Assembly (NCBI GenBank): GCA_027067555.1
Contig: JAMOVU010000107.1
Coordinates: forward strand, 1-34,269
DNA from: Candidatus Aminicenantota bacterium
Lineage (GTDB): Bacteria; Acidobacteriota; Aminicenantia; JAMOAD01
DNA length: 34,269 bases
Direction: 5' to 3'
Every line of letters begins with the position of its first letter. Position 1 is the stretch's first letter. The notes under the pieces are model-generated. The model did no database searches, had not been told where the DNA came from, and saw only the letters and a program-made list of their open reading frames with translations. A program made the translations under genes and the position numbers. Positions 7,571-33,133 of this stretch are shown here, piece by piece.

Positions 7571-9241
7571 TTATTTGAGATACAAAACAGCGGCAACCGG
7601 CTGTTTTTTATAAATAAGACTTTCTTTAAAAACAAAAATATCTTTTTCCCTCATTTCTCTAAAAAGAAATTTTTTTAATTCAACCTCGCCCGGTCGGTCA
7701 ATAGGGTTCAGATACCAGTCAAATGCTATATATTTTGTTTTCTTTCTCTTTAATTTACCAACAATAAAAACTTCAAGTTTTTTCCTATTTTTGTAAACAC
7801 GCTCATCTTTAGGATAAAAGTATAGCATATTAATATTTCTCTTCAAATAAAACCTGATCATTACTAAATCTGAAAAAATGGCAGCCCTTTTCAAAATGGG
7901 ATTATTATTAATCCATTCAGCAATGGCATAGGCCCCTTTGTTTGGAGTGGAATATATATATTTGTATGCCTTTTTATAATCTTTGAAATAATAATTAAGG
8001 AAAAAAGAGAATACTAAGGTTAATAAAATCAGCTTCTCAAGTTTTTTTAACTTTAATGATTCTAAAAAGATTAAGAGTAATGGTAGTATAAAAACAAGAG
8101 AGATTAGCATAAATTTTGAAGTAATAAGAAATTTAGAAAAAATTACAAAACTCAGAATAAAATAAGAACTATATCTAAAAAAAGTGAAGCTTTTATTTCC
8201 CACCTTTTCTTTAAGATATTTTAATAATCCATACAACCCAATAAAGCTTACTACAAAAAAGATAAAGACAAAAGATAAAAACCTTCTTAAATTGTGTTCT
8301 CCCGGGATGAATGTATGAGAATTTGCAAAAACATAACCTTTCCCAAAAGCAAAAACCAGCTCATAAAACACCAGGGAAACTGCTATTTTCACATTTTTCT
8401 TAGAAAGTAAAAAAATGCCAAAAATAAAAAATCCCATCAAGGAATAGAGAGCACCCCAATGAACAAATAATGGTGCTTTGTTAGGAATAAAGTTCAATAT
8501 CCCAGAATAAATAATATAAAAAAGCTGTTTTGGATGGTATAAAAAAAACAGAAAAGATTTTGTATCTGCCACAAGTCTTATTTTTTCCACAAAACGGTGA
8601 CCAAACCTGTAATAGAAAAGATAAATAATGGGAGTAGAAATCAAAAAAAAGAAGAATAATTTAAAATAGCTTTTAATCTTTTTAAAATCAAAAGAATAAA
8701 TAAATAATACAAAGATTAGCAATATACCTTCATATCTTGTTAAAGCACCCAAAAGAACACTAAAAAAAAGAAGAAAATCATTTTTAGCAAGGAAAAAGTA
8801 AAAAGAAGCTATAACAAAAAACAGGAAAATAATGTCAGTGGAGGGAAAACTCAAGAATTTAAGGAAAAATGGTGAAATAATAATAAAAATAGTTCCCAAA
8901 ATGGAAAAACTTCTGGTATATTCTCTTAAAAATTTGTAAGAAAAAAATATTATCCCCACTCCTGCAAAAAGAGATAATAATTTACTGGCTGTTATAAAAG
9001 GGTTATACGAGGATAAAAAAAGATTCAGGATTTTTCCTAAAATATATAGAGAAAAAGGGAAAAAAGGAGGAATAAATTTTAAATTTAAGCCCCCATTAAT
9101 TAATCTTTCCCCTGCAAAATAATATTTATAAAAATCCGGTGGAGCAAGCTTAGTTACAGGAAAGAGCAAAATCCAATTTAACAAGACAAAAGAAAGGAGG
9201 TAAAAAATCGGATTGGTAAATGTTTTTATTAGTCTTTCCAT
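7571..9241 (-). CDS. Multi-pass GT-C fold glycosyltransferase (GT39/ArnT-like)
   Basis: 556 residues, mostly hydrophobic, with roughly ten to twelve membrane helices. The first helix is followed by APPDFYKYYFAGERLI, an acidic residue (Asp36) in the first external loop as in GT-C enzymes of the PMT_2/RgtA-D group, which use polyprenyl-phosphate sugars on the periplasmic face. The C-terminal soluble part (about 420-556: YSTPNKGAYAIAEWINNN, KYIAFDWYLNPIDRPGE) resembles the periplasmic tail of this group. It would add a sugar to the glycan or lipid after flipping, or glycosylate a protein. It lies 22 bases downstream of fcl and before wzz in the same direction. Substrate unknown. Confidence 0.75.
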   Translation of the reverse strand: MERLIKTFTNPIFYLLSFVLLNWILLFPVTKLAPPDFYKYYFAGERLINGGLNLKFIPPFFPFSLYILGKILNLFLSSYNPFITASKLLSLFAGVGIIFFSYKFLREYTRSFSILGTIFIIISPFFLKFLSFPSTDIIFLFFVIASFYFFLAKNDFLLFFSVLLGALTRYEGILLIFVLFIYSFDFKKIKSYFKLFFFFLISTPIIYLFYYRFGHRFVEKIRLVADTKSFLFFLYHPKQLFYIIYSGILNFIPNKAPLFVHWGALYSLMGFFIFGIFLLSKKNVKIAVSLVFYELVFAFGKGYVFANSHTFIPGEHNLRRFLSFVFIFFVVSFIGLYGLLKYLKEKVGNKSFTFFRYSSYFILSFVIFSKFLITSKFMLISLVFILPLLLIFLESLKLKKLEKLILLTLVFSFFLNYYFKDYKKAYKYIYSTPNKGAYAIAEWINNNPILKRAAIFSDLVMIRFYLKRNINMLYFYPKDERVYKNRKKLEVFIVGKLKRKKTKYIAFDWYLNPIDRPGEVELKKFLFREMREKDIFVFKESLIYKKQPVAAVLYLK

Positions 9242-10373: not shown

Positions 10374-11660
10374 TTATTTAAGAAAATATTTTTCCAATTC
10401 CTTCCCTATATCATTTATATAAGGATGTTTTTCCAGATCAAAGCCATACGAATCTAATAGGAGGGCATTATCCTGTGCGTGCATTCCTTCAAAAAAGGAG
10501 ATGGAATACTTTTCTTTTTTTGTTATTCCGGCTTTCAAATCAAAGCCATAGTTTGAAAGGAGTACAATATCGGGAGCATTATCAAAAAATTGTCCGGAGT
10601 AAATATCCTCTTTAAAAAAAACATTTTTAATGACTTTTTCCCCTTCTATTTCAATTGAAAGAAACCTCTCCTTAAGCTCCAGCCTTAGCTTTTCATAATC
10701 TTTTTGATCAACACTCCCCTTTCCATACTTATCTTTCAAATTAATGTATACTCTTGAAGGGTCAAGTGCAAATGCCTGTGAGGTTTCTTTTATGCTTTTC
10801 AGATTTTTCGGGTTTTCATCTTCAAAATCAAGATACCCCCATTCCTTTAAATATTGAGAAATATAAACCTCATACTTTAAAGAAGTGAAACCATGATCAG
10901 AGAGGATTATAAATGGAATACCTCTTTTTTCCATCTCTTCAGTAATTTTTCCTATAACACTATCAACATGTCTGTAATAATCTTCAAAATCCTTTTGGTT
11001 CTCATGCTTTTCATCATCTTTTGCCTTAAACAAAAAGTGGTGAAGCCTGTCAGTACCTGTAATTATAAAGAAAAAAAGATCCCACTTTTCTTTGTCAAGC
11101 TTTTTATAAACAGAAAATCTTTTATCAAGTGTATCGTGAAGCTCTTTTAAAAAGAATTTTTTATCACTCCTTCCCAGAGCTGTATCAACATCCACCTTAT
11201 AATCAAGCTTTTTTAAATATGATAAAAATTCTTTCGGATAAACAGCATTTTCAAGGTCAAGAGCAACAAAGCCTGAAATCAGATACCCATTTATTTTTCT
11301 CACCGGATATGTGTTCGGAAGATTAATTATTATTGATTTTTTACCTTTTTCTCCTATTTTCTCCCAAATAGTTTTTACAGGCAAAAGAGGAAAAGTGGGA
11401 AATCTGTATCCATAATTTTTTTTGTTTATTTCCATAAATCCGTAAATTCCATGTTCTCCCGGATTCATTCCTGTCATAAAGGATGTCCAGGAGACAGAAG
11501 AGACTTCGGGAACCGGAACCTGAGTTCTTATAAACTTATATCTTTCAATCAATCTTTTAAAATTAGGCATAATTCCTTTTTGGACAAAGTCTTTTATTAA
11601 CTCATGAGGAACACCATCAATACCAATAACCATGAACTTTCTGGATTTTTTAAAAAGCAT
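10374..11660 (-). CDS. Alkaline-phosphatase-superfamily phosphodiesterase/nucleotide pyrophosphatase-like protein
   Basis: Type I phosphodiesterase fold (PF01663-like). Visible motifs: metal Asp in MVIGIDGVPHELI, the nucleophile segment SSVSWTSFMTGMNPGEHGIYG, TGTDRLHHFLF, IILSDHGFTSL and GMHAQDNALLLDSYG, together giving the two-metal site of this superfamily. No signal peptide or membrane helix, so cytoplasmic. Such genes are frequent in exopolysaccharide loci of uncultured bacteria, with unknown substrates (phosphodiester sugar donors are one possibility). The frame is open to an upstream ATG at 11696 that would overlap the preceding epimerase by 26 bases. The ATG at 11660 was preferred because AGAGGG directly follows the epimerase stop, and the protein then starts close to the conserved domain. 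Confidence 0.8.
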   Translation of the reverse strand: MLFKKSRKFMVIGIDGVPHELIKDFVQKGIMPNFKRLIERYKFIRTQVPVPEVSSVSWTSFMTGMNPGEHGIYGFMEINKKNYGYRFPTFPLLPVKTIWEKIGEKGKKSIIINLPNTYPVRKINGYLISGFVALDLENAVYPKEFLSYLKKLDYKVDVDTALGRSDKKFFLKELHDTLDKRFSVYKKLDKEKWDLFFFIITGTDRLHHFLFKAKDDEKHENQKDFEDYYRHVDSVIGKITEEMEKRGIPFIILSDHGFTSLKYEVYISQYLKEWGYLDFEDENPKNLKSIKETSQAFALDPSRVYINLKDKYGKGSVDQKDYEKLRLELKERFLSIEIEGEKVIKNVFFKEDIYSGQFFDNAPDIVLLSNYGFDLKAGITKKEKYSISFFEGMHAQDNALLLDSYGFDLEKHPYINDIGKELEKYFLK

Positions 11661-11670
11661 CTTTCCCTCT

Positions 11671-12639
11671 TTAATTTTTCTCTTTAAACCAATCATAAGT
11701 CAGCCTTAATCCCTTTTTCAAATCAATCTCAGGATTAAAGCCCAGAATCTTTTTTGCTTTTTCTATTGAGGTATAGTTTCTTCTGATTTCTCCTTTTCTT
11801 TCGGGTTTATACTCAACACGGATTTCATTTTCTACAATATCCCTTATATACTCTACTAATTTATTTACAGATGTTTCAACACCTGTTCCGAGCTGAAAAA
11901 TTTCTCCCCCAATTTGTCTTTTTTCAATTGCTTTTACAATCGCCCGGGATAAATCTCCGGCATATATAAAATCTCTTGTTTGTTCCCCATCCCCATAAAT
12001 AAAAATAGGCTCACCTTTAATAATTCTCCTGTAAAATTCAGCAACAACACTTCCCTTATGATATGAATAAATTCCGTATACATTTGAAAATCTCAAGACT
12101 ACTGTTTCCAGACCAAAACTACCATAAAAAGCTTTGCAATATCCCTCACCTGCCAATTTTGAAGCTCCATATGGGGAAAGTGGGGAAGGAATTTTTTCCT
12201 CATTTAAAGGAGGAGTTTGTTCTCCGAGAGGAGCAGCAGAAGATGAGAAAACAAATCTTTTAATTCCATATTTTACAGAATAGTTTAAAAGATTTAATGT
12301 CCCCAGAACATTTACATCGGCATCTTTAAAAGGGTTCTCAATAGAAGGAATAACCCCGGTTTGAGCTGCAAGATGAACAACATAATCGCTCTTTTTAATA
12401 ATATCATCAAGATTTTTATCTCTTATATCCCTTTTACAAAAAATAACAGACACATCATCAGAAAGATTTTCCGAATAGATAACCCCGTGTTTTTCCAGGA
12501 TCTCCTTAAATAAGCTTAAATTCCCCGAAGACAAATTATCCAATATTATGACCTTATATTTATTTAACTTTAAAAGAAAATCCAGCAGATTCAGCCCTAC
12601 AAAACCTGCTCCGCCAGTAATTAAAATAGTCTCCTTCAC
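11671..12639 (-). CDS. NAD-dependent sugar epimerase/dehydratase (GalE-like extended SDR)
   Basis: 322 residues; TGGAGFVG at 8-15 is the NAD-binding loop, FSSSAAPLGE the Ser-containing active-site strand, and Tyr157/Lys161 in SPYGASKLAGE the catalytic pair. DNLSSGN, HLAAQTGV, RFSNVYG and DGEQTRDFIYAGDLSRAI are standard for UDP-glucose 4-epimerase-type enzymes acting on nucleotide sugars. The exact substrate (UDP-Glc, UDP-GlcNAc or another) cannot be decided. The start is GTG and overlaps the GT2 stop (GTGA), so it is translated with its neighbours. Confidence 0.85.
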   Translation of the reverse strand: MKETILITGGAGFVGLNLLDFLLKLNKYKVIILDNLSSGNLSLFKEILEKHGVIYSENLSDDVSVIFCKRDIRDKNLDDIIKKSDYVVHLAAQTGVIPSIENPFKDADVNVLGTLNLLNYSVKYGIKRFVFSSSAAPLGEQTPPLNEEKIPSPLSPYGASKLAGEGYCKAFYGSFGLETVVLRFSNVYGIYSYHKGSVVAEFYRRIIKGEPIFIYGDGEQTRDFIYAGDLSRAIVKAIEKRQIGGEIFQLGTGVETSVNKLVEYIRDIVENEIRVEYKPERKGEIRRNYTSIEKAKKILGFNPEIDLKKGLRLTYDWFKEKN

Positions 12640-13265
12640 TTTTTAAAAATCTCCGATAATACTATAAAAAATTGAAAGAAATGTCTCCATGCAATGCCCC
12701 GAGGTTTTTCAATAGGAATTTCTTCTATATCAACTTCTTTTATCCTTGCCCCTTTTTTATAAAAAAAAAGAACAAAAACCCCACAGGTGCAGCTTCCTTT
12801 TAGATTTTTAATCCCATCAGTAAAAGATTTCTTAAAAGCTCTAAACCCTGTACCCGCATCATATACTCCTGTTTTAAGCCTTGTGATAAAAGAAATAATC
12901 CTTTCGGAAAAGCGAGGGATTTTTTTTCTTTTACCCAAAACAAGGTCAGCTTCATTATTTAATATTGGAGCCACAAGGTCAGGAATCCTGTCAGCAGGAT
13001 GTTCTCCATCCGCATCTATTGTTACAATTATCCCTGAATCTATAAGCTTAATCCCTTTTATGATATTTTTCAGATAACCAAGGTTTTCGGAATTTCTTAT
13101 AATGTTGGCACCCAGTTTTTTTGCAACCTCAGCTGTTCTGTCAGAACTCGCGTCATCGATAACAAGAACTTCATCAACATGTTTTTTAACATCTTCTATT
13201 ACTTTCCCGATTCTATTCTCCTCATTGTAAGCCGGGATAAGCGCCGTTATTTTGGTTCTATTCAT
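12636..13265 (-). CDS. Family 2 glycosyltransferase (dolichyl/polyprenyl-phosphate mannose-synthase-like)
   Basis: About 210 residues with a GT-A fold: ITALIPAYNEENRIGKVI at the N-terminus, VLVIDDASSDRTAE (first acidic motif), NLGYLKNIIKG and IVTIDADGEHP (DxD metal and nucleotide-sugar site). GTGFRAFKK follows later. The short size and absence of C-terminal membrane helices fit Dpm1-like enzymes that transfer a sugar from a nucleotide donor to polyprenyl phosphate. Such a product could feed the GT-C enzyme at 7571-9241; this link is an inference. The frame opens with TTG at 13268 followed by ATG at 13265; the ATG is taken. It follows the thioredoxin gene by a few bases and overlaps the next epimerase by four. 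Confidence 0.85.
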   Translation of the reverse strand: MNRTKITALIPAYNEENRIGKVIEDVKKHVDEVLVIDDASSDRTAEVAKKLGANIIRNSENLGYLKNIIKGIKLIDSGIIVTIDADGEHPADRIPDLVAPILNNEADLVLGKRKKIPRFSERIISFITRLKTGVYDAGTGFRAFKKSFTDGIKNLKGSCTCGVFVLFFYKKGARIKEVDIEEIPIEKPRGIAWRHFFQFFIVLSEIFKK

Positions 13266-13272
13266 CAAAACT

Positions 13273-13632
13273 TTACTTCTCAGAGTCTATTATTTTTATC
13301 GCACTTTCAATAAGATCAGCAAGCTGTTTTTTTGATGAAGCACCTATTATTTCCTTTATCTTTTTTCTACCTTTTATTATCATGTATGATGGGACACCCT
13401 GAATATCGTATGCCTTTGCAATTTTTTTATTTATATCAACATTCACCTTGATAAACTCAACTCTATCCTTATACATATTCATAATATCATTCAAAAGGGG
13501 TTCCATCATTCTGCACGGAGGACACCACACAGCCCAGAAATCAATAAAAACAGGCTTTTTGCAATTGTCAACCTTCTCATAAAACTCTTTTTCATCTACA
13601 GGTTTCAAATCCCACATTTTTACTTTTCCCAC
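13273..13632 (-). CDS. Thioredoxin with a WCPPC active site
   Basis: 119 residues, the normal thioredoxin size and fold order: PVFIDFWAVWCPPCRMMEPL with redox Cys37 and Cys40, VEFIKVNVDINKKIAKAYDI, and the cis-proline loop QGVPSYMII (Pro81). The dipeptide between the cysteines is Pro-Pro instead of the Gly-Pro of classical thioredoxin, which usually shifts the redox potential. An extra Cys24 precedes the active site. No signal peptide, so cytoplasmic. It begins with GTG sharing one base with the stop of the SQD1-like gene (TAGTG), so the two are translationally coupled, which hints that it serves that Cys-rich enzyme. A later ATG (codon 6) is a possible alternative start. Confidence 0.9.
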   Translation of the reverse strand: MGKVKMWDLKPVDEKEFYEKVDNCKKPVFIDFWAVWCPPCRMMEPLLNDIMNMYKDRVEFIKVNVDINKKIAKAYDIQGVPSYMIIKGRKKIKEIIGASSKKQLADLIESAIKIIDSEK

Positions 13633-15098
13633 TAAAATTTATCTATTATCTCTATAATTTTTGCTTCCCTCTTTTCTCCTGACCAGTGAGTGCGCGGTAA
13701 GATTACATGTTTTTTCTCCTCTATTCTTGCTTTGATGTGAGGTTTGGTCAGGAGTTTAAACATTCTGTATATTTCTTCTTCAAGGGTAACTTTAGGTTTA
13801 AAGCCAAATCTATCGGGAAGGTTCTTATATATTACTTCATAGGGATGCTCATCAGCTTCAACTCTTGGATTTTCAAGTCTTTGAATTTTCGGGCTTAATC
13901 CAAATTCCTCTTTTCCTATTTTTGCAACTGTCATCGCAAGTTCCATTAAAGAATAAACACCGGACAGTTGATTAACAACATCATACACTCCCGGTGGCGG
14001 AGGATTGTTTATAAGTCTTGTCATACACTGCATTGCATCCATAAGTGCAAGAAAACCTCTTTTTTGATGACCTGTACCATATATCGTTAGCGGTATCCCC
14101 ACGACTGCCTGAGCAACAAATCTGTTAATTGCAGTTCCAAACCACTCGTCAACATCAAACCTTGTTCTCAAATCATCATCCTCTTCAAATTGGGGTAAGT
14201 GAACACCATAAATAACGCCCTGCATTATATCGTATGATCTAAGCCACCAGTATTTGCAGGCTTCGTAAACATTAAAAGTATCCTGAACCTTTGACACATG
14301 GTAAAAGCTTACAGGATCTCTCGGGGTAAGTTCTCCTCCGAGACTCCATTCTCTGTCTCCCCATTTTAAAACAGCATCAGCCGGGAAAAGCCCTTCAAAG
14401 ATAGGCCTCCCTGTCAAAGGAGTACCATACTCTCCCATTGTTCCCAATTTAATGAGTGAAGCATTGGGAACTATATCCCTCATAGCAAATAGCAATCTCA
14501 ATGTCCCCATCACATTGTTTGTTTGAACGAAAACTGCGTGATCATCATCCACCATACTATAGGGAGCAGAAGGATTTTCAGCATAGTGAACAATAGCATC
14601 CGGTTTAACCTCCTCAAGAAATTCTCTGAATTTGTTTCTATCAAGGAGGTCTATCTCTCTGAAATTTATATTGATACCCAAAATTTCCTTGGCTTTTTTA
14701 AGTCTCTGGGTCATTCTTGCTATTGGTACTATGGTGTGAGATCCCTTTTCCTTAACCCAATTTCTTCTGCTGTAATTATCAATACCACTCACCTCATAAC
14801 CGAGGCTGCCAAGCCAAAGAGCAAGAGACCACCCCAAATATCCGTCAATCCCGAGAATCATAACCTTCATCTTCCTGAGCCTATAACCGTATTCTGATTT
14901 TTCCCATTCAGGGCATTCTTCAAAGCTCACAGAAGACGGATCAAAAAAGCCAAGTTCCGGCCTCCTTTTACATGAGCCCATATTAAAACCCTCCTCAACC
15001 TCCCCCGCACTTTGCCCGCAGGCTCTAAAATCAACTCCTCCTTTAAATTCAAACATTGGACAATTCCAACATGTGTTATGAGCATTGTGTTCTGTCAT
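13632..15098 (-). CDS. sqdB: UDP-sulfoquinovose synthase (SQD1/SqdB/Agl3) homologue with Cys-rich N-terminal extension
   Basis: Extended SDR of 488 residues. Residues 78-480 follow SQD1 closely: NAD loop GIDGYLG (83-89), HYAENPSAPYSMVD, NNVMGTLRLLFA, KLGTMGEYGTP (Thr220), SFYHVSKVQDT (Tyr266, Lys270), MQGVIYGV, TRFDVDEWFGTAINRFVAQA, and the C-terminal NPRVEADEHPYEVIYKNL. These motifs separate SQD1 from ordinary epimerases. The family makes UDP-sulfoquinovose (UDP-6-sulfo-6-deoxyglucose) from UDP-glucose and sulfite. Residues 1-75 are an added domain with cysteines at 10, 13, 27, 43 and 62 (CWNC...C...C...C), plausible for a metal or Fe-S site. The start is supported by AAGGAG eight bases upstream. 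A coupled thioredoxin follows. An altered sulfonate or other substrate is possible. Confidence 0.82.
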   Translation of the reverse strand: MTEHNAHNTCWNCPMFEFKGGVDFRACGQSAGEVEEGFNMGSCKRRPELGFFDPSSVSFEECPEWEKSEYGYRLRKMKVMILGIDGYLGWSLALWLGSLGYEVSGIDNYSRRNWVKEKGSHTIVPIARMTQRLKKAKEILGININFREIDLLDRNKFREFLEEVKPDAIVHYAENPSAPYSMVDDDHAVFVQTNNVMGTLRLLFAMRDIVPNASLIKLGTMGEYGTPLTGRPIFEGLFPADAVLKWGDREWSLGGELTPRDPVSFYHVSKVQDTFNVYEACKYWWLRSYDIMQGVIYGVHLPQFEEDDDLRTRFDVDEWFGTAINRFVAQAVVGIPLTIYGTGHQKRGFLALMDAMQCMTRLINNPPPPGVYDVVNQLSGVYSLMELAMTVAKIGKEEFGLSPKIQRLENPRVEADEHPYEVIYKNLPDRFGFKPKVTLEEEIYRMFKLLTKPHIKARIEEKKHVILPRTHWSGEKREAKIIEIIDKF

Positions 15099-15166: not shown

Positions 15167-16525
15167 TTAATTACCTTTAAAATTCAAAACTGTTTTAATC
15201 GTTTTGATTAATATTATTAAATCAAGTAAAAGAGACATGTTTTTTATATAAAATAGCTCATATTTGAATTTTTCAAGTTGTTGTTCCACTGTATTAATGT
15301 ATCCCATTTTAACCTGAGACCATCCGGTAAGGCCGGGTTTAATAAAAAATCTCAAATCATAAAAAGGAATCTCTTTTTTTAATTGATCAGCAAAATATTT
15401 TCTAATGGGTCTATTGCCTACAAGGCTCATGTCCCCTTTAAGCACATTAATTAGCTGAGGGATTTCATCAATCCTTGTTCTTCTCAAAAATTTCCCCACT
15501 TTTGTTATTCTCGGATCATCTTTTCCGGCCCATTTAGGACCTGTTTGTTTTTCCGCATCAACTATCATTGTTCTGAATTTTATTAATCTGAAGGGTTTCT
15601 TATACCATCCCAATCTTTCCTGGATGAAAAAAATAGGCCCTTTTGATGTTATCTTTATTAAAAATGCGGTTATCAAAAAAAGCGGAGCAAAAAGAATCAA
15701 TAGGAAACTTGCAACCAACAAGTCAAAAACTCTTTTTAATTTGTAATATGAAGTAATACTTGTCAAATAACTTTTTTCATAAACTATTTTCCAGACATTT
15801 TTAAAACTGATATCAAAAACTTTTCCCGTTATACTTATATAAAAATTCTCAAAATCATAGACAAAAAAGCCCTTAAACCTCAACTCGAGAATCTTCTCAA
15901 TATGCTCTTTCACAATATTTTTTTCAAAAGATAATACGATTATCTCTTCCTGCGATAAATTCTTTTCAATCTCATTAATAAAATTTCCCACCTTATTATC
16001 CGGAATAAACTCAAAAATAAAAAAAGAATTATTTTCAAATTCATCCGATATCGCCTTTCGCTCTCCATCCGAAAGCCCGAGAAAATAAACTTTTTGTTTT
16101 GTTATGCTTTTTTCAAAATTTAAAAAGAAGAGAAAACGCTGAAAAATAAGTATAATGAAATAAAGAGAAAAAAGAAGTACAAAAACCACTCTCCCGACAA
16201 AATAATAAGGTATAAAATAAAATATAAACCCTGCCAAAAAAGAAACAAACACAAGCGAAAAAAGAAGTTTAACAGCTGTTTTGCTAAAATTTCCCACTTC
16301 CCACCTTTCATAAACTCCAAAGATATAAAAAGCGATAAAGATTAATGGAAAAAGAATAAGGTACACCACCAAACTTTTTTCCATTAATATCATAGAAAAT
16401 TCTCTTTTGTCATAAATAAACCTTATTATATATGAAAGAAAAATCACCCCTAACAGGATAATCTGATCGATAAAAAACAATTTCACTCTTACTTTATTAA
16501 AAACAAAAGAAAAATAATCTTTCAT
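15167..16525 (-). CDS. Undecaprenyl-phosphate sugar-phosphate transferase (WbaP/WcaJ-type initiating enzyme)
   Basis: 452 residues. Four to five N-terminal membrane helices (residues about 10-135), a central Rossmann-like CoA-binding_3-type segment, one more hydrophobic helix in RVFDLLVASFLLILFAPLFL, then the PF02397 catalytic domain: KGPIFFIQERLGWYKKPFRL, LIKFRTMIVDAE, the Asp353-Glu354 catalytic dyad in TRIDEIPQL, and SLVGNRPIRKY. It transfers sugar-1-phosphate from a UDP-sugar to undecaprenyl phosphate in the inner membrane, starting repeat-unit assembly for the whole locus. The usual SLVGPRP motif reads GNRP here. Its start overlaps the stop of the upstream GT4 gene (ATGA). Confidence 0.92.
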   Translation of the reverse strand: MKDYFSFVFNKVRVKLFFIDQIILLGVIFLSYIIRFIYDKREFSMILMEKSLVVYLILFPLIFIAFYIFGVYERWEVGNFSKTAVKLLFSLVFVSFLAGFIFYFIPYYFVGRVVFVLLFSLYFIILIFQRFLFFLNFEKSITKQKVYFLGLSDGERKAISDEFENNSFFIFEFIPDNKVGNFINEIEKNLSQEEIIVLSFEKNIVKEHIEKILELRFKGFFVYDFENFYISITGKVFDISFKNVWKIVYEKSYLTSITSYYKLKRVFDLLVASFLLILFAPLFLITAFLIKITSKGPIFFIQERLGWYKKPFRLIKFRTMIVDAEKQTGPKWAGKDDPRITKVGKFLRRTRIDEIPQLINVLKGDMSLVGNRPIRKYFADQLKKEIPFYDLRFFIKPGLTGWSQVKMGYINTVEQQLEKFKYELFYIKNMSLLLDLIILIKTIKTVLNFKGN

Positions 16526-17739
16526 TCATTTACCTCCTTTTCCATCAACACATTATAATATCTTGAAGAGGAAAGAGTTCTTTTATAAAGAGATTCAAAC
16601 TTATTTCTTAGCAGTTTCCCCTCTTCTTTCAGAAGCTCTCTGTTATTATAATAAAAAATTACACTATCACAAAAAGTATCAACATCCCCCTCATCAACAA
16701 AATGACCTACCCTATTTTCAATTATAAAATCGTAAATCTCATTTTCTTTATCTCCCACAAGAATGAAAGGTCTGCCAACCGCCATAATTCCGTAAAATTT
16801 TGAAGGTAACAACAATCCCCCTATTCCCCTTTTTATACTAATAAGCGCAATATCTGCCATGTTCAAACTGTAATTTAAATCCTCATAGGCTTGATAAGGC
16901 AATATCATAACATTTGTAAGATTATTCTCTTTTACATATTTCTCCACCCCCTCTTTTTTAGGGCCTTCGCCGATAAATTGAAAAATAATATCTTTTTTAT
17001 CTTTTAATCTTTTAATCCCTTCAAGAATCGTTTTAAATTCATGTCCCAATCCCATATTTCCCGAATACTGAACCACAAATCTGTTTTCCAGATTGAACTT
17101 TTTTATAAAAGGATTATCTTTTTTTTCAACAGGATAAAGTTTTTCTTCATTTGCCCAGTTGGGGATTATGTGAATCTTTTCTTCTTCAATATTATAAATT
17201 TTTAGAATCCTATTCTTCATTCTAACACCGAGAGTAATAACCTTATCCGCTTTTTTAAAAACAAAATTATTCAATCTTCTTAAAATACTTGAGAAGATAG
17301 AGTTTTCCTTAATCATTCCTAATTTGATTTCCAGCTCAGGATGCAAATCCTCCACTATATATATGACTCTGGCTCCCTTGAGTTTTCCCAATAAAATACC
17401 CACCGGCGCTATCATCGGAGGAGAGGAAAAAACCATGATTCTATCAATTCTTTTTATAAAAAGGCCTTTTAAAAAAACACTTACAAAAAAAGTGATAATT
17501 TCCAATAATCTATAGAAAAAAGATTTTCCCTTTGCATACACATTATTTACCCTGTAAATTTTTATCCCTCTGTACTTCTCATACTTTTTGTGCTTTTTTG
17601 AGCCATTATAACTATTTCTTGAACAAATCACGGAAACATCAATCCCTTTTTTTACAAGATCCTCTGACAATTCTGTAAGCAGTTGGGGAACTGATGTTAT
17701 ATCAGGGTAAAAGTATCTGTTAATTATTAAGAGATTCAT
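16522..17739 (-). CDS. GT4 glycosyltransferase, WbuB-like
   Basis: 405 residues, GT-B fold. The N-terminus (MNLLIINRYFYPDITSVPQLL) and the donor-site segment LLLPSKFYGIMAVGRPFILV resemble the WbuB group (N-acetyl-fucosaminyltransferase-like) more than classical GT4 enzymes with an EGFG-type motif. It also has PNWANEEKLYP, VVQYSGNMGLGHE and GEGPKKEGVEKYV. WbuB-like enzymes often sit next to the initiating transferase, as here. It overlaps the previous GT4 gene by 20 bases and has no evident Shine-Dalgarno, so translation may depend on coupling. It would add an early sugar to the lipid-linked repeat unit in the cytoplasm. Confidence 0.86.
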   Translation of the reverse strand: MNLLIINRYFYPDITSVPQLLTELSEDLVKKGIDVSVICSRNSYNGSKKHKKYEKYRGIKIYRVNNVYAKGKSFFYRLLEIITFFVSVFLKGLFIKRIDRIMVFSSPPMIAPVGILLGKLKGARVIYIVEDLHPELEIKLGMIKENSIFSSILRRLNNFVFKKADKVITLGVRMKNRILKIYNIEEEKIHIIPNWANEEKLYPVEKKDNPFIKKFNLENRFVVQYSGNMGLGHEFKTILEGIKRLKDKKDIIFQFIGEGPKKEGVEKYVKENNLTNVMILPYQAYEDLNYSLNMADIALISIKRGIGGLLLPSKFYGIMAVGRPFILVGDKENEIYDFIIENRVGHFVDEGDVDTFCDSVIFYYNNRELLKEEGKLLRNKFESLYKRTLSSSRYYNVLMEKEVNE

Positions 17740-18865
17740 TTTTTGTAATTAGTTCATAAATTTTTTTGTGCATTTCAGAACAAATCTTTATGTCAAGATT
17801 CTTCCTCGCTATCTCTCTTGATAATATTCCAAATTTTTTTCTTAAATCCGGATTTTCTATTAAAACAGATATCCTTTCAGCCAATTTTTCAGGATTTCTT
17901 ACCCCAACTATAAAGCCATTCTTTCCCTCCCTTATAAAATCAGGTACGGAACCAACATCAGTCGAAACAACGGGCTTTTCCATTGCCATGGCCTCCCAGA
18001 CTGACTGGGGGGATGCTTCTGCAACAGACGAGCACACATAAATATCAGAAGCTTTCAAAATTTCACTGATATTATCAACACCGCCAAGAAAAATAAAATT
18101 TTTCAAATTATAATTTGAAATCTTTTTCTTTAAATAATCAATGTATTTTTTCTGAGTATCAAACAGGTTTCCTGCAACAAAAAACCACAAATTTTCATAC
18201 TTTTTATTCAAAATATTTGCCGCATCAATAAAGTATTCAAAGCCCTTGTAAGGATTAACATTCCCTACGCTTAGAATCCTTACTCCTTCATACTTTAAAA
18301 GGTTTTTATCAGGTTTTACAATATCAGGATTAAATTTTTCTGTATTAACAGGAGCCTGGATTTCCATAATAGGTTTATTAATTTTAAAATTTTTTAAATA
18401 ATACTCTTTTACTCTTCTCCCCTCAACAATAAAGCCATCCACAAAATTTTTCAAAAACCTGAAAATCCCTCTTATATAGGAAGGTATTCTTGTATCATTT
18501 AAATGCCAGATAAGTTTTTTCCCGGCAAGTCTTCCTGCAATCACTCCCTTCCACTGCCAGGAGGCATTACAGTGAACAATATCAGGATTTATTTCTTTTA
18601 TTATTTTTTTTAATTTTAATATCTGGGGAATAAAAGTCAATTTCCACCTAAAAAAACCGAAGAAACTTTTTGATAATTTATTCAGCCTTATTGCTCTATA
18701 GTCAATCCCATAATCACTCAATAATTTTTCAAACCTTTCCGAATCCTTGTCAGGAAAAAAAACAATTGTGTCAATTCCTTCTTTTTTTAACCTCTTTGCA
18801 ACCTCAGCAATTCGCAGTTGAGGTCCCGCAATTCTGCCATCAAGAACTATATTAATTATTTTCAT
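17720..18865 (-). CDS. GT4 glycosyltransferase
   Basis: 381 residues with two Rossmann-like lobes. N-terminal acceptor lobe: MKIINIVLDGRIAGPQLRIA, DIVHCNASWQWKGVIAG. C-terminal donor lobe: RILSVGNVNPYKGFEYFIDA, FIFLGGVDNISEILKASDIY and the EX7E-type motif EASPQSVWEAMAMEKPVVST, expected to bind the nucleotide-sugar diphosphate. No signal peptide. Start overlaps the upstream GT4 stop by four bases (ATGA). Sugar and linkage cannot be predicted. Confidence 0.88.
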   Translation of the reverse strand: MKIINIVLDGRIAGPQLRIAEVAKRLKKEGIDTIVFFPDKDSERFEKLLSDYGIDYRAIRLNKLSKSFFGFFRWKLTFIPQILKLKKIIKEINPDIVHCNASWQWKGVIAGRLAGKKLIWHLNDTRIPSYIRGIFRFLKNFVDGFIVEGRRVKEYYLKNFKINKPIMEIQAPVNTEKFNPDIVKPDKNLLKYEGVRILSVGNVNPYKGFEYFIDAANILNKKYENLWFFVAGNLFDTQKKYIDYLKKKISNYNLKNFIFLGGVDNISEILKASDIYVCSSVAEASPQSVWEAMAMEKPVVSTDVGSVPDFIREGKNGFIVGVRNPEKLAERISVLIENPDLRKKFGILSREIARKNLDIKICSEMHKKIYELITKNESLNN

Positions 18866-20004
18866 TTTTTAGATTCATCGTTTACTTCTTTTAGTAGTTT
18901 TAATACTTTTTCTGAAGCATATTCAGGAGTATATTTCAAGGCACTTATAAGTGCGCTATTTTTCACCTTTTTTATATCCAATTCAGCATTAATAATTTTT
19001 TTTATTTTACTAACTAAGTTATTTTTATCTAATGGATCAAATAGAAATCCATTTTGATTTTCTTTAATTAAATCTTTAGATCCGCACCGCCTTGAGATAA
19101 GAGGGACTAAACCGGAAGCCATAGCTTCATTAACTACAATCCCCCATGGTTCTCTTAATGAGGGTAAAATCAAGATATCACTTACCGCATAATATTTGGG
19201 AAGTTCATTTCTCTGTTTAAATGGAAGGAAAAACACATCTTTTATATCTTCATTTTCAACAAAATCTTTTAAATCACCAAGAAGAGGTCCCCCTCCCACT
19301 AAAATTAAACCCCAATTTTTATCTTTTGTCTGATTTTTAGCTTCTTTAAATGCTTTTAGCAAAAAAAACAAATTTTTTTCTTCGGAAAATCTTCCGACAT
19401 ATATGAAATTATGTTTTTTAAAACCCTCTGTTTTAATAATTTCCTCTCTCTTTGCCTTGTACTTTGCTGCTTCATTCTTCCAATATTCATTATCAGTAAC
19501 ATTGGGTTTAATCACGATTTTTTCTTCGGGCATACCCAATGATACAAAATATTCTTTGCTGAGCTTTCCATAAGTAATTCCATAATCACACATTTTCACA
19601 AATATTTTTTTTAAAAACTCCTTATAAAATCTTCTCTTTCCAATATTATATCTGTTCGAATCCATTTCTAAAATGATTTTTTTCTTCTTTACTTTGGAGT
19701 AAATTAAAGCAACCCAATAGGCAATTTCAGTATAACCTCCAAGATAAATCATTTTAAAATCTTCTTTTCCTAAAGTTTTTAGCAGTTTAAAAATTAACTT
19801 TATCTTTGGGACCTTATCCAGATTCCCTTTAAAAAGAATTTTATAAGGATAATTTAAATATGAAAGGTCTATTTCCCATTTTCTATCACTCTGAGTCTCT
19901 GCAAGGTGAATAACCTTAAACTCTTTATACCTGTTTTCCAGGGCATTGAATACAATATTTTTATAATAGGAAGTTGCAATATTGTGAAGTATCAACAGCT
20001 CCAT
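18862..20004 (-). CDS. GT4 glycosyltransferase
   Basis: 380 residues, GT-B fold. Motifs: IVIKPNVTDNEYW, NFIYVGRFSEEKNLFFLLKA, LILPSLREPWGIVVNEAMAS with the EPWGIVVNE donor-binding element, and a typical NGFLFDPLDKNNL tail. It resembles sugar transferases of LPS/capsule clusters. Its ATG directly adjoins the stop of the FkbM methyltransferase gene, so the two are coupled. Specific donor unknown. Confidence 0.88.
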   Translation of the reverse strand: MELLILHNIATSYYKNIVFNALENRYKEFKVIHLAETQSDRKWEIDLSYLNYPYKILFKGNLDKVPKIKLIFKLLKTLGKEDFKMIYLGGYTEIAYWVALIYSKVKKKKIILEMDSNRYNIGKRRFYKEFLKKIFVKMCDYGITYGKLSKEYFVSLGMPEEKIVIKPNVTDNEYWKNEAAKYKAKREEIIKTEGFKKHNFIYVGRFSEEKNLFFLLKAFKEAKNQTKDKNWGLILVGGGPLLGDLKDFVENEDIKDVFFLPFKQRNELPKYYAVSDILILPSLREPWGIVVNEAMASGLVPLISRRCGSKDLIKENQNGFLFDPLDKNNLVSKIKKIINAELDIKKVKNSALISALKYTPEYASEKVLKLLKEVNDESKK

Positions 20005-20817
20005 TTATAGTTCACCTTTAATAGCAAATAAATCGTGCGAATGTTTTATTAACTCCCCATCAAAAGACGGTAGCTTACCCTTTCCCAATGCAAAAACCTT
20101 CCATCCTCTTTTTTTAAAAAATTCAAGAAGAGGCTCCAGAGGAGTGGTTTTAAGTCTTTCGAACTGAATTAATCTCACTGAAGATTCTTCAATGATTTTT
20201 TCAGCTCCTTTTAATACATCAAGCTCAAATCCTTCCACATCTATCTTTATAAAACTTAGATCCCCATAATATTTCTCAGGAATAATGTTATCAAGTTTAT
20301 CAATTTTAACAATATAATTTCCGCTATCTTTGCTAATTTTTGCTGTGGTATCAAAATTTCCTTTAAAATCAAACTTTATTTCTCCACTGCTATTTCCCAG
20401 AGCAATTCCATAGAGTTCATATTTAATCCCATTTAATTTCATATTAGCTTCACAAATATTGGCAGTTTCCTTAATTGGTTCAAATAAAATAAATTTTCTG
20501 AATTTATCTTTTAAAAGAAGAGGATAAACACCCATATTTGCTCCTATATCTATAAATATCCCACCCTCTTTCAAAAACTTTCTTAAAAAAATTATTTTAT
20601 CACTATCATAAATTCTCGCGTATATCGGGAAGGAGCCCATAGGTGTTTTCGGGTGGGCGATATATTTTGCTCCGTTGTCCAGATTGATAATAAGAGGTTT
20701 TTTCACCGTTCTTTTCCATATTTGCCAGCATAAAGCATAAAATAATCTTCTGATTCTTTGCTTTTTGTTGGACTCTTCTTTTAAAATAAATTTAAAAATC
20801 TTGAATAATCTGTTCAT
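20005..20817 (-). CDS. FkbM-family methyltransferase
   Basis: 270 residues with the FkbM pattern: SAM-binding motif I GGIFIDIGANMGVYPLLL, FILFEPIKETANICEANM (acidic ribose-binding residue), and SFIKIDVEGFELDVLKGAEK, the family signature. FkbM proteins methylate hydroxyl groups, and in polysaccharide loci they are thought to O-methylate sugars. A basic N-terminal segment (about 70 residues) precedes the domain. Position between wzy and GT4 genes supports modification of the repeat unit or chain end. Substrate is an inference. Confidence 0.88.
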   Translation of the reverse strand: MNRLFKIFKFILKEESNKKQRIRRLFYALCWQIWKRTVKKPLIINLDNGAKYIAHPKTPMGSFPIYARIYDSDKIIFLRKFLKEGGIFIDIGANMGVYPLLLKDKFRKFILFEPIKETANICEANMKLNGIKYELYGIALGNSSGEIKFDFKGNFDTTAKISKDSGNYIVKIDKLDNIIPEKYYGDLSFIKIDVEGFELDVLKGAEKIIEESSVRLIQFERLKTTPLEPLLEFFKKRGWKVFALGKGKLPSFDGELIKHSHDLFAIKGEL

Positions 20818-20829
20818 TTTTATCTTTCT

Positions 20830-22035
20830 CTACACTTTGTTTAATTCACTTTTTGCTTTTATAGCCTCTCTTTTTAAAAAATAATAAACTTCCATAAAAC
20901 CTATTAAAAACCAAAAAATACTAACAAATAACATAGAATGAGTAATGTTAAAGATAAAGAAAGTAGAAACCGCTATAAAATAAAAATAATACTCAGAAAT
21001 CATACTTAGATTATAAATCAAAATATAGATACTCAACAAAAAAATACCGAAAGAAAAAAAGCCCAAAAGCCCTGTAGCAGCCAGAATCTCAAGATAAACA
21101 TTATGAATGTTCTTTCGGGGAATATTATATTCTTCAGATGTAACAATTTTCAAATTATCAAAACCAACCCCCGTAAGAGGAGCTTTCATCCAGGTATCAA
21201 AAGCAGCACTCCATCTTATTGTCCTATAATTTAATTCCACACTCATTATCCTCTTGACCACCAATTTATTAGGGATTAAAGCAAGAAAAAGCAGAAAAAA
21301 GATAATAAATACACCTGAAGACTTAAGTATATTTAACACTAATTCTTTTTTTATCTTCCTTTTCCAGAATATTATAAAAAAGACAGAAATGATTCCTCCA
21401 AATAACAAACTTCTGCTTTCACATAAAACCAATACGAATAATAGAAGAATATCCAGGGTAAAATATACAAGATTGTTTTTAATACTCTTTTTCTTATAAA
21501 ATTGAAAAGATAACACAAAAACAATAAAAACAAAAACCGCAAAACTGTTTGAGTTAGGAGAAGGGCCTATTCCTTTAAGTCTAATGAGTCCATTTTTGTG
21601 GATATGGAACTTAATAAAATCAAAATAAAAAAAACGAAAAAATTGCATAATAATTAAAAAAGATAAAAAAGAGGTTGAATAAAACAATATCTTAACAATT
21701 TTTGTCAATACTATTTCTTCTTTAATCACATTTAATAATAAAAAAGGAACTCCCACCCACAATAAAATTAGCAAAATCCTTAAATTTATTCTTCCATAAA
21801 CCAAATAGCCAAACCCAATGAAAACAAAAATAAATAGAATAGAAGGGAAAAAAGTTATAGGAATTCTAATTTTTTTTGTAATAGCCAATTTTGAAAATAA
21901 AAGAAAATACAAACTACCCATTATTAATAACGCCAATGGGATATTTTTAACTCTTATGACACTATAAAAAGGGAATAAAAGAAAAAATAGATACAATAAA
22001 AAATATAACAACTTATTTATATTAAAATTTACCAT
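20830..22035 (-). CDS. wzy: O-antigen ligase / Wzy-type polysaccharide polymerase
   Basis: 401 residues with about eleven membrane helices and the Wzy_C/O-antigen ligase (PF04932) hallmark: after PLTGVGFDNLKIVTSEEY comes a periplasmic loop with RKNIHNVYLEILAATGLLG, containing the conserved His followed by the glycine-rich turn and next helix. A basic Arg-rich stretch (VKRIMSVELNYRTIRWSAAF) precedes it. In a locus with Wzx and Wzz, polymerase is the likelier role than ligase, but the families are not separable by eye. Start overlaps the preceding GT4 stop by seven bases. Confidence 0.82.
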   Translation of the reverse strand: MVNFNINKLLYFLLYLFFLLFPFYSVIRVKNIPLALLIMGSLYFLLFSKLAITKKIRIPITFFPSILFIFVFIGFGYLVYGRINLRILLILLWVGVPFLLLNVIKEEIVLTKIVKILFYSTSFLSFLIIMQFFRFFYFDFIKFHIHKNGLIRLKGIGPSPNSNSFAVFVFIVFVLSFQFYKKKSIKNNLVYFTLDILLLFVLVLCESRSLLFGGIISVFFIIFWKRKIKKELVLNILKSSGVFIIFFLLFLALIPNKLVVKRIMSVELNYRTIRWSAAFDTWMKAPLTGVGFDNLKIVTSEEYNIPRKNIHNVYLEILAATGLLGFFSFGIFLLSIYILIYNLSMISEYYFYFIAVSTFFIFNITHSMLFVSIFWFLIGFMEVYYFLKREAIKAKSELNKV

Positions 22036-23171
22036 TTCATATTTAAAAGTGATTGATAAAGCATAACTTCCTCCTGTGCAATAATTCCAATAGAAAAATT
22101 TTCTCTAATATGTTTTACACTTTTTGAAGAAAGATCTTTCAGTTTTTTCTCGTCTGATATTAACTCAATAATTTTTCTAAACAATCCGTCAATGTTTCCA
22201 ACATTAACCACCTGAATAATATTTCTTCCCTTGTCAATTAACTTTATACCCGCGATATCATAAGCAACCACAGGCAAACCGCAAGCCATGGCTTCTTTTG
22301 CCACACGAGGAGAACCTTCATAATAAGAAGGAAATATAAATAAATCACAATTGTTATAATAATCAACTAATTCTTTTTGTTTTAATTTTCCAATGAATTC
22401 AATATTATTAATTAATTCATATTTAGATATCAAACTATTAACATCCTTCTCTACTTTTCTCTGATTAAATCTTCCCACTAAATACAAAACATATCTAATA
22501 TTAGCATCTCTAAGAAGTTTAGCAACCTCTATCAAATCAAAGATACCCTTTCTCTCCAATAAATTCCCAACAAAAAGTAATTTATAATAATTTTCTTCTT
22601 TTTTTATTTTCATAGGATGAAACAACTCTGTATCAACCGGTGTAGGTAAAGTAAAAATCGACCTTTTAATTTTAATTTTCTTGATTACTTCATTCACAAG
22701 CTCTTCAATTTGCTTTGAATTACCTATAATAACATCTGAAGTTAATATAGATAAAAGATCAAAAAGACTGCGTTTCAATAAAAGAATCTTTTGTCTCAAA
22801 CTAAACTTGATTCTTTTTCTCTTAAAAATAATTAGATTAGGGAAATAAAATTTGGTTATATTCTTAATATTTTTAGTTCTTTTATAATCTTTTCCAAAAT
22901 AAATTAAATTAATAAAATGATTAATAATTATTATATCTTTTTCATTATTAATTTCTTTTTTTATAATATTTTTTATTTTAAAATAGAATTTGAATTTATC
23001 TTTTATTATGAATATTTTGGTATTTCCAAAATTTTTAACATTAACGTCATTATGTAATTCTCTTGTAAAAATAATAACATTTTCGACCTCTGAAAAATTG
23101 CTCATTTCACAGTATAATTTTAATCTTTCAGAATAATTCTTAAAACTTGGAAAGATAATAAGTATTCTCAT
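22029..23171 (-). CDS. GT4 glycosyltransferase
   Basis: 380 residues. The C-terminal donor lobe is clear: YKLLFVGNLLERKGIFDLIE, YVLYLVGRFNQRKVEKDV, LFIFPSYYEGSPRVAKEAMA, with the EX7E motif in EGSPRVAKE. The N-terminal lobe is lysine/isoleucine-rich and divergent. It overlaps the wzx stop (ATGA at 23168-23171). Donor and acceptor unknown. The gene is markedly AT-rich like its wzx and wzy neighbours. Confidence 0.86.
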   Translation of the reverse strand: MRILIIFPSFKNYSERLKLYCEMSNFSEVENVIIFTRELHNDVNVKNFGNTKIFIIKDKFKFYFKIKNIIKKEINNEKDIIIINHFINLIYFGKDYKRTKNIKNITKFYFPNLIIFKRKRIKFSLRQKILLLKRSLFDLLSILTSDVIIGNSKQIEELVNEVIKKIKIKRSIFTLPTPVDTELFHPMKIKKEENYYKLLFVGNLLERKGIFDLIEVAKLLRDANIRYVLYLVGRFNQRKVEKDVNSLISKYELINNIEFIGKLKQKELVDYYNNCDLFIFPSYYEGSPRVAKEAMACGLPVVAYDIAGIKLIDKGRNIIQVVNVGNIDGLFRKIIELISDEKKLKDLSSKSVKHIRENFSIGIIAQEEVMLYQSLLNMKW

Positions 23172-24694
23172 TGTATTAAATCTCTATCAACAAATCTCAT
23201 TAATATATTTCTAATAAAACCGGGATATAAATAAAGTGTTATTCTAATTAAAAAGTAAAAATCTTCATTAAAAAACCTTAATCTAAAAATAACCACTAAA
23301 AAAAATAAAATTAAAAACCATAACACTATCATTAAAAATAAATAAAAAAAATGATTATCAATAATAATACTCATTTTTGCTATAAAAAAAATAATAAAAA
23401 AAGAAAATCCGTAAATAAATATTGGCTTTAACATAAGAAAAAACTCATAAATTTTTATATTTAATAAATTACATAAAAAAACAAATAAAATAATAAAAAC
23501 AAAAAATATACTTAAACCGACTCCATAACTAACGCCCTTGAGTCCCCACTTAATTCCAGTATAACTTAATCCTATAATTAAAATCATATATATCGTATGA
23601 ATAAAAAATTGTTCTTTTACTTTTCCTAAAGCCAAAATAACAGAATCAAAAACTTTATACAAACCTCTGAAGACACCAAACAAAATTAAAATCTTTAAAG
23701 GTAAAACAACAGGCAACCATTTACTGCCCAATATTGTAATAACTATACTTTTAGCAGTAAAAAAAATTAAAATTGTAATTGAAAAAGTTACAATAGACAA
23801 CAATGGGATAAAACCAAGGATAAATCTTTTCATCTTTTCCTTATCATTTTGAATTTTTGAAAAAACCGGGAATAACACATTTGAGAAAACCTCAATAATA
23901 GACGTACTTCCGAATTGCATTAAATAATATGCTTTGGAATAAATTCCCAATGAAAAATCTCCCATAAATTTACCAACTATAAAATAATCTCCTTTTACCG
24001 CCCCAAGATTAACTACATGAGTTAAGGCTGTCCAAGATCCAAACTTAATTATCTTTTTTATCTCATTGATTCTTAGTTTAAACTTAAATTTGAAATTATT
24101 TCTTTTCAAAATATTCAAAGATATCAAAAATAATAATAATGAATTTGCAATAGAGCCCCAAACCAAGCTAAAAACCCCAAAACCTAAAAAGGCTAATAAT
24201 ATAGAGATAAAAGCATATCCAAGAATATAACTATAAGATCTAATATAAAAGAGAGATTTGTAATCCACTTTTTTTCTTAAAACAGCCAATGGAACCAAAG
24301 ACAATGAATCAAATATAAATTGAACAGATAAGATTTTAATTATTAAAATCAATCTATTATTATTAAAAAAAACAGATAATGGTGAGGCACTATAAAAAAA
24401 TAAAAAAGAAAATATTACACCAATAATTAATGCCAATGAATTTGCCGAAAATAAAAAAGCATCATTAATTTTTTCCCTCTGAACCACCGCGGGCAATATA
24501 CTCATTCTAATAATAGAACTACCAACACTTAAGAAAATTTGAACAATACCAAACAAACCAAAATCCTGAGGGACAAGTAATCGTGCTAAAATCATCATTG
24601 TAACAAACTTCATAATGTTAACAAATGTTTGTCCGACTGCTTGCCACTTAACACCATGGATAAAAATTTGACTAATTCTAATTTTACTCCCCAT
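23168..24694 (-). CDS. wzx: Oligosaccharide flippase, WzxC-like (MOP/PST family)
   Basis: 508 residues with about 14 predicted membrane helices. The N-terminus HGVKWQAVGQTFVNIMKFVT, ILARLLVPQDFGLFGIVQIF and the later IIKFGSWTALTHVVNLGAVK, DYFIVGKFMGDFSLGIYSKA match lipopolysaccharide biosynthesis proteins of the WzxC/Polysacc_synt_3 type. Expected to flip undecaprenyl-diphosphate-linked repeat units across the inner membrane. No clear Shine-Dalgarno is visible before the ATG at 24694, and the sequence there is very AT-rich. It lies 19 bases downstream of a methyltransferase gene. Confidence 0.9.
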   Translation of the reverse strand: MGSKIRISQIFIHGVKWQAVGQTFVNIMKFVTMMILARLLVPQDFGLFGIVQIFLSVGSSIIRMSILPAVVQREKINDAFLFSANSLALIIGVIFSFLFFYSASPLSVFFNNNRLILIIKILSVQFIFDSLSLVPLAVLRKKVDYKSLFYIRSYSYILGYAFISILLAFLGFGVFSLVWGSIANSLLLFLISLNILKRNNFKFKFKLRINEIKKIIKFGSWTALTHVVNLGAVKGDYFIVGKFMGDFSLGIYSKAYYLMQFGSTSIIEVFSNVLFPVFSKIQNDKEKMKRFILGFIPLLSIVTFSITILIFFTAKSIVITILGSKWLPVVLPLKILILFGVFRGLYKVFDSVILALGKVKEQFFIHTIYMILIIGLSYTGIKWGLKGVSYGVGLSIFFVFIILFVFLCNLLNIKIYEFFLMLKPIFIYGFSFFIIFFIAKMSIIIDNHFFYLFLMIVLWFLILFFLVVIFRLRFFNEDFYFLIRITLYLYPGFIRNILMRFVDRDLIQ

Positions 24695-24713: not shown

Positions 24714-25400
24714 TTATTTAAAAAAAGATCTTCTTATTTTTGAATAGATATTATAAAATAAATTATATATTAGTGTTTTATAATCATTCATTCCCATCTT
24801 CCCATTTAAACTAACTAACTCCAATAATTTCTCATCAAGCACACCCTTCCATTTTCCCTTATCTTTGGTCCCTATATAAAAAAGATATACGTCTATAGCA
24901 GGCGGTGGGGTATAACTTTCGTATAGCACATCAAAACCATTGTTTTTATACATATTTCTCATTGCCATGGGAGAGAATCTATAATAATCACCATAATTGC
25001 CGGGAGAAAAATGCAATTTTTGTTTAAAAGGTACAACAAGAATTAAAATATCTTTTGTCATTAAGGAGAGGTTCTTAAAAACTTTAAGAGGATCGGACAC
25101 ATGTTCCAGTACCGTATGATTAAAAACAACATCAAATCTTTCAATCATATCTTCGGGTAAGTCCTTTTCAAGATCAAGAATAAAATCAGTTTTAACATAC
25201 TGATTAACACCTCTTTCCTTATCCTTACCATAATTTGAAACATAATAATTCGTAGCATTGGGGAAATAATCTCTGTAAAAATTCCCTTCTTTATCTTTAT
25301 CAGCCCAACCAGAAACATTAATTATTTCTCCCTTAAAAAACTTCCCGAATTTTCTTAATTCAATGTTTGACCAAGAACGAGGATTTACTTTTTTAAACAT
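24714..25400 (-). CDS. Class I SAM-dependent methyltransferase (Methyltransf_11-like)
   Basis: 228 residues. The core is readable from the post-motif FDVVFNHTVLEHVSDPLKVF, preceded by TDFILDLEKDLPEDM and followed by DILILVVPFKQKLHF and YYRFSPMAMRNMYKNNGFDV, typical of small-molecule methyltransferases in polysaccharide clusters. The glycine-rich motif I is degenerate (EIINVSGWADKDKEGN), so activity needs caution. A strong RBS (AAGGAGG) lies five bases before the ATG. A TATAAT about 18 bases upstream of the start might be a -10 box, but no matching -35 was found. Likely modifies a sugar or an acyl group. Confidence 0.78.
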   Translation of the reverse strand: MFKKVNPRSWSNIELRKFGKFFKGEIINVSGWADKDKEGNFYRDYFPNATNYYVSNYGKDKERGVNQYVKTDFILDLEKDLPEDMIERFDVVFNHTVLEHVSDPLKVFKNLSLMTKDILILVVPFKQKLHFSPGNYGDYYRFSPMAMRNMYKNNGFDVLYESYTPPPAIDVYLFYIGTKDKGKWKGVLDEKLLELVSLNGKMGMNDYKTLIYNLFYNIYSKIRRSFFK

Positions 25401-30665: not shown

Positions 30666-30701
30666 CTTTTTACCTCCTTTTTTAATTTAATAAAAGGTGA
30701 A

Positions 30702-30716: not shown

Positions 30717-30767
30717 TTTTTAAAAAACAAAGATTTAAAAGGCTTTTGAGAAATTCCTAAAAAACAA

Positions 30768-33130: not shown

Positions 33131-33133
33131 AAT

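Follow-up and report, generated by a model that had tools for sequence, protein, structure and literature searches.

The window analysed here is a stretch of 34,269 nt from an Aminicenantes MAG, and all plain coordinates below refer to it. The host genome measures 2.8 Mb, and the named genomes closest to it are Candidatus Aminicenantes MAGs. The gene for an SQD1-like enzyme, the adjoining thioredoxin gene and the neighbours of this module were all found on the minus strand, which the initial annotation had left unstated:

13632..15098, minus strand: SQD1-type NAD-dependent sugar-nucleotide enzyme with an N-terminal Cys domain, 488 aa (ORF with sequence and fold matches)
14874..15098, minus strand: N-terminal Cys domain, residues 1-75 (kept clade-wide; no Pfam, NCBIfam or PDB match)
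15069-15071 (Cys10), 15060-15062 (Cys13), 15018-15020 (Cys27), 14970-14972 (Cys43) and 14913-14915 (Cys62), minus strand: cysteine codons of the domain
13635..14873, minus strand: SQD1-like catalytic part, residues 76-488 (PDB 1i24; Foldseek 1qrr)
14313..14417, minus strand: clade-specific active-site insert, residues 228-262 (alignment with relatives)
13273..13617, minus strand: CPPC thioredoxin from an ATG start, with an alternative GTG at 13632 (PF00085, TIGR01068)
12636..13268, minus strand: GT2 glycosyltransferase resembling polyprenyl/dolichyl-phosphate hexose transferases (PF00535, E 8.8e-29; NCBIfam matches below cut-off)
11671..12639, minus strand: GalE-like NAD epimerase/dehydratase (PF01370, E 6e-56)
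10374..11696, minus strand: alkaline-phosphatase-superfamily phosphodiesterase-like protein, cytoplasmic by sequence (PF01663, E 4e-42)
15167..24694, minus strand: surface-polysaccharide genes, namely Bac_transf priming transferase, GT4 transferases, FkbM methyltransferase, Wzy_C ligase and Wzx flippase (Pfam)

Wzx, Wzy_C, Wzz, a priming transferase and several glycosyltransferases were present, in agreement with the initial annotation, which had placed the enzyme inside a polysaccharide locus. A GT2 gene also comes after the module in part of the clade described below. The same locus contains a sulfatase (25566-26975; PF00884, E 4e-53), which may act on a sulfated glycan, and three genes of 556, 228 and 221 aa (7571-9241, 24714-25400 and 27219-27884) that gave zero Pfam matches. 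Adjoining the polysaccharide genes, positions 29178-34181 encode three secreted-type proteins with Kre9/KNH and bacterial Ig-like domains.

The cysteine domain and its operon partners

The N-terminal extension carries cysteines at positions 10, 13, 27, 43 and 62, as had been described, and two more (281 and 358) lie in the core. The annotated start of the SQD1-like gene is real: an AAGGAG precedes its ATG, and the first 75 residues evolve as slowly as the core (dN 0.04-0.05 vs 0.04-0.06 between Aminicenantes genomes, with synonymous sites saturated). A survey of one genome per species, covering 84,980 species, yielded 65 loci, and the Cys domain was present in every locus that reaches the protein start. 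We aligned 57 relatives from Aminicenantes, Planctomycetota, Omnitrophota, Chloroflexota, Asgard, Bathyarchaeota, Thermoplasmata and other groups. C13, C27, C43 and C62 were invariant, while C10 was found in 56 of the 57 rows, the remaining row starting later; such conservation argues that the Cys set is not due to chance. The domain consensus is TCW[NS]CP...VDFRACGQ...ECxRRPELG.F[DE]P..ITFEECPEW. Searches of Pfam (with 26 members), NCBIfam and PDB, the latter by sequence profile and by fold (Foldseek), gave no significant match, so the extension corresponds to no described domain. A known kind of Fe-S domain was rejected, as neither profile nor fold matched. In profile searches of 148 related and 294 Planctomycetota genomes the domain was always fused to an SQD1-type enzyme; a weak match in G234 (E 5e-4) was discarded, being a short frame without an SQD1-like gene.

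The CPPC thioredoxin lies directly downstream (PF00085, E 1.4e-27; TIGR01068, 99.7 bits over a cut-off of 96.8). By ORF calls, 50 of 55 loci encode a thioredoxin no more than 600 bases downstream. The five apparent exceptions were rejected when tblastn found the gene; once these five, missed by the gene finder, and L019 had been recovered, all 56 loci with enough sequence (56/56) shared the arrangement. In contrast, neither a thioredoxin nor a PF01663 neighbour was found at any of 27 SQD1-type loci without the domain (flanks of 1.5 kb). The difference in thioredoxin linkage gave a Fisher p of 6e-17, with the reservation that locus counts are not independent because over a third of the loci come from Planctomycetaceae; the pattern of domain, thioredoxin and PF01663 gene holds over many bacterial and archaeal phyla. 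The proposed pairing is thus borne out well beyond the window, and the concern that the Cys set or the thioredoxin neighbour might not be conserved is clearly answered: both are. The initial annotation had further let the thioredoxin start share a base with the stop codon of the enzyme. This one-base overlap (TAGTG) does exist, but it involves the alternative GTG start only. In a close relative the thioredoxin starts at the equivalent of ATG 13617, 14 bases past the SQD1-like stop, and from this comparison we prefer ATG 13617, the GTG at 13632 being less likely.

A fixed thioredoxin partner and invariant cysteines are also what a redox switch would show. Here an ordinary synthase would use free sulfite, a disulfide in the Cys domain would turn it off, and thioredoxin would turn it on when reducing power, and hence sulfite, is available. 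Chloroplast carbon enzymes are under thioredoxin control and provide a precedent. However, a switch leaves unexplained the thioredoxin-sulfotransferase fusion, the CysD/CysN neighbours and the sulfate activation without CysH described below, and many of the hosts are probably anaerobes (judging from taxonomy), leaving less for it to sense. We regard it as somewhat unlikely.

The usual operon order is PF01663 gene, SQD1-like gene, thioredoxin gene, often with overlapping ends. Of 61 loci, 54 have the PF01663 gene upstream and 57 have it on one side or the other, and in L013 and L047 it is visible in the ORF lists as well. Its counterpart in the window (10374-11696), two genes beyond the thioredoxin, was absent from the earlier reading, as were the active-site insert and the thioredoxin-sulfotransferase fusion of relatives described below. 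Residues D27, S66, D216, H220, D267, H268 and H406 are conserved in this protein, and we take them to be metal and nucleophile positions, as in known members of the alkaline phosphatase superfamily. Conservation of the metal-site residues makes an active hydrolase or transferase probable. A sequence search of PDB gave marginal matches only. Module-bearing archaea carry a second PF01663 paralogue beside ATP sulfurylase, often together with APS kinase (L183:8536-12578, L186:7032-9563, L187:6250-9324, L190:6824-9733), so the superfamily seems tied to sulfate activation. In five Planctomycetota loci (L035, L041, L044, L047, L070) a gene of about 125-135 aa with a GPGLLESAYE motif lies between the PF01663 and SQD1-like genes.

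One variant (L158, from an Omnitrophota group; also L161:8127-9602) has lost the VDFRACGQ segment containing Cys27 and keeps the insert and the other four cysteines. Neither a thioredoxin nor a PF01663 gene was found within about 8 kb of it. The joint loss of Cys27 and both neighbours, although a single case, points to Cys27 as the probable partner of thioredoxin. In the AF2 model the domain has a pLDDT of 82, lowest around residues 21-40, and its most confident parts are at Cys43 and Cys62. Together with the CxxC and two further cysteines, this would also suit a structural or electron-transfer domain, in which zinc or an Fe-S cluster, bound by all five cysteines or by four of them, serves folding, oligomer contact or substrate choice, and thioredoxin only keeps the cysteines reduced or aids metal loading. 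Yet the invariant cysteines number five rather than four, Cys27 falls in a less certain loop of the model, and the lone relative without it is also without thioredoxin. We consider this account unlikely.

The catalytic part and its putative product

The ORF at 13632-15098 carries the motifs by which the protein had been recognised as an SQD1-type enzyme, and its nearest match is SQD1. Residues 76-472 match Arabidopsis SQD1 (PDB 1i24) with E 1e-82 in a sequence search of PDB, and the predicted structure (pLDDT 79, pTM 0.85) matches SQD1 1qrr with a Foldseek E of 5.6e-36, the next family following at 4e-18. The core motifs are GxDGYxGW, TMGEYG (220-225) and YxxxK (266-270). The catalytic residues T220, Y266 and K270 are found in all 57 aligned rows, and position 221 is Met in 51 and Leu in 6. 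An [ST]MG motif is typical of UDP-sulfoquinovose synthases (PMC8987622).

Residues 228-262 form an insert (LTGRPxFEGxFPADAVLxWxxREWSLGGELTPRDP) in a low-confidence region of the AF2 model. This insert (PLTGRPxFEG...REWSLGGELTPRDP) was found in every Cys-domain protein and is absent from SQD1 and from SQD1-type proteins without the domain. Full-profile searches separated two groups, domain proteins at E 1e-170 to 1e-284 and SQD1-type proteins at E 1e-76 to 1e-137, the latter usually joining the profile near its residue 60-80. When the tree was built from the catalytic part only, the Cys-domain proteins fell together on one side of a branch supported at SH-aLRT 100, with a stem length of 1.24. 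Within the clade bacteria and archaea are intermingled (internal support is moderate), which points to transfer between domains of life. The clade enzyme was the sole SQD1-like protein in 19 of 20 genomes tested; Borrarchaeum has a second one without the Cys domain (L099:4479-5642).

The sulfite-site residues, whose alteration in homologues had been named as a possible objection, gave a divided result. S180, the SDR triad and TMGE(Y) are kept. His95, Arg101 and Met145 are also essential in Agl3, where the Arg101 alanine mutant is dead (PMC4388408). In the clade alignment the Met145 position is Met in 51 of 57 rows, the His95 position is His in 35 and Gln in 22 (Gln in Planctomycetaceae), and the Arg101 position is Pro in 56. 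Pro occurs at this position in several SQD1-type proteins without the Cys domain as well, and we rejected it as a mark of the clade. Because a residue essential in Agl3 is replaced, UDP-sulfoquinovose can be called only the putative product.

The replaced Arg101, the partial His95 to Gln change, the insert in the active site, the long stem branch and an NF041015 score of 436.5 bits, under the curated cut-off of 575, could all indicate that the enzyme makes something else. The core might halt at, or branch from, the 4-keto-5,6-ene, using another nucleophile or yielding another 6-modified sugar. The score is not decisive, since Sulfolobus acidocaldarius, whose genome encodes a proven Agl3, falls under the same cut-off; this control led us to reject it as an argument against sulfoquinovose. 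Moreover, the TMG motif of UDP-sulfoquinovose synthases is kept (PMC8987622), among solved structures SQD1 is much the closest, and the sulfur-linked neighbours point to sulfur. A different product is improbable in our judgement, and sequence comparison suggests a new subfamily within the UDP-sulfoquinovose synthase family.

Sulfate activation and a possible on-site supply of sulfite

Several genomes link the module to activated sulfate. Planctomycetaceae carry the thioredoxin as a fusion with a Sulfotransfer_3 domain (PF13469; L046:7553-8497 and about 15 further loci). Free Sulfotransfer_3 genes follow the thioredoxin in L032, L035, L037, L040 and L042 and precede the PF01663 gene in L033, and the domain was also found near the module in one Spirochaetes and one Thermoplasmata genome. 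It has a GLPRSGTS loop and an R...S pair eight residues apart, which we take to fit the PAPS-binding signature. The sulfotransferase was rejected as a universal partner, being absent from most genomes, including that of the window. CysD/CysN adjoin the module in six loci (L013, L015, L016, L021, L066, L069). In Borrarchaeum the genes for APS kinase and ATP sulfurylase flank a related sulfotransferase gene, and a DHH protein is encoded there too; in Geothermarchaeum the same two activation enzymes are encoded about 8 kb away from the module.

In the window's own genome, as in three Aminicenantes relatives that are at least 95% complete, ATP sulfurylase lies beside a DHH protein and no PF01507 protein was detected. 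Sat without PF01507 was found in 11 of 23 genomes, this one included, and four more had only CysD (15/23 in total). These cells can make APS yet have no assimilatory reductase of the usual kind; the count covers CysH-type (PF01507) reductases. Neither Sat nor PF01507 was found in G149. CysH-type reductases may be present in some of the genomes, where an on-enzyme route would be redundant.

The Cys domain and the near-constant thioredoxin neighbour, in bacteria and archaea alike, suggest that sulfite is made or handed over on the enzyme. Our preferred reading, held tentatively, is that the clade represents a subfamily of UDP-sulfoquinovose synthase in its own right, spread by horizontal transfer and bringing its own sulfite-handling part. 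The core would oxidise UDP-glucose at C4 and remove water, giving the 4-keto-5,6-ene to which sulfite adds. Cys10, Cys13, Cys43 and Cys62 would bind a metal, either zinc or an Fe-S cluster; this is a guess from their spacing. Cys27, in a flexible loop, would carry the sulfonate as a thiosulfonate (Cys-S-SO3-) obtained from activated sulfate (APS, or PAPS via the sulfotransferase where present) or from some other sulfonate donor. Reduction of Cys27 by the dedicated thioredoxin would then set sulfite free beside the active site, as with APS/PAPS reductase, and the sulfonated sugar would enter a surface glycan. There is precedent for such chemistry: in APS reductase the enzyme-bound thiosulfonate is resolved by thioredoxin, which frees sulfite (PMC6827007), and S-sulfocysteine is reduced by thioredoxins in vitro, sulfite being the other product (PMC3528435). 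How sulfite reaches C6 in vivo in SQD1-type enzymes has been called unknown, and Agl3 without sulfite yields UDP-glucose-5,6-ene (PMC4388408); clearing this dead-end compound is our guess for the PF01663 protein. Against our preferred reading stand the Pro at Arg101 and the Gln at His95 in 22 of 57 rows, the lack of a sulfotransferase in most genomes, and the single case of Cys27 loss. The stronger version, for which we see a rather small chance, has the Cys domain and the thioredoxin acting together as a new type of sulfonucleotide reduction unit, one with no relation to CysH, that turns the sulfur of APS or PAPS into sulfite on the synthase and passes it straight to the UDP-sugar, with no free sulfite.

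Comparison with known systems

In the open-licence literature searched we found no description of the enzyme with a thioredoxin, the Cys-rich domain, the phosphodiesterase or these host groups, in line with the earlier view of the pairing as an undescribed system. SQD1-type enzymes have poor in vitro activity, and this clade links or fuses a candidate sulfite supplier to the enzyme in an expressible form. If the preferred reading is right, many uncultured bacteria and archaea make sulfonated sugars, for which we found no record in these organisms, and this would matter for the sulfur cycle and for surface glycans.

SQD1/SqdB (PDB 1i24, 1qrr; NF041015) share the SDR fold, GxDGYxGW, TMGEYG, YHxSK and NPRVEAxxH with the clade, at about 41% core identity, but they have no Cys domain and no insert, and Arg101 is present. 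To our knowledge they have no thioredoxin or PF01663 partner. Agl3 of S. acidocaldarius and its archaeal relatives belong to the same reaction family, serve surface glycans and also fall under the NF041015 cut-off; they differ in forming a separate branch, and 18 archaeal loci showed neither Cys domain nor insert, and neither of the two neighbours, thioredoxin and PF01663 gene. In CysH and plant APR, the APS/PAPS reductases, a Cys-bound thiosulfonate is resolved by thioredoxin, which is the model proposed here, and plant APR can carry a fused thioredoxin domain (PMC6827007). These reductases are unrelated in sequence, however, and the clade protein gave no PF01507 match in Pfam, so it may work like an APS/PAPS reductase without being one; its sulfite would be used in place rather than released. 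Plant SQD1 also has a partner protein, being found in complex with ferredoxin-dependent glutamate synthase (cited in PMC4388408), whereas in the clade the partners are the fused Cys domain and the thioredoxin.
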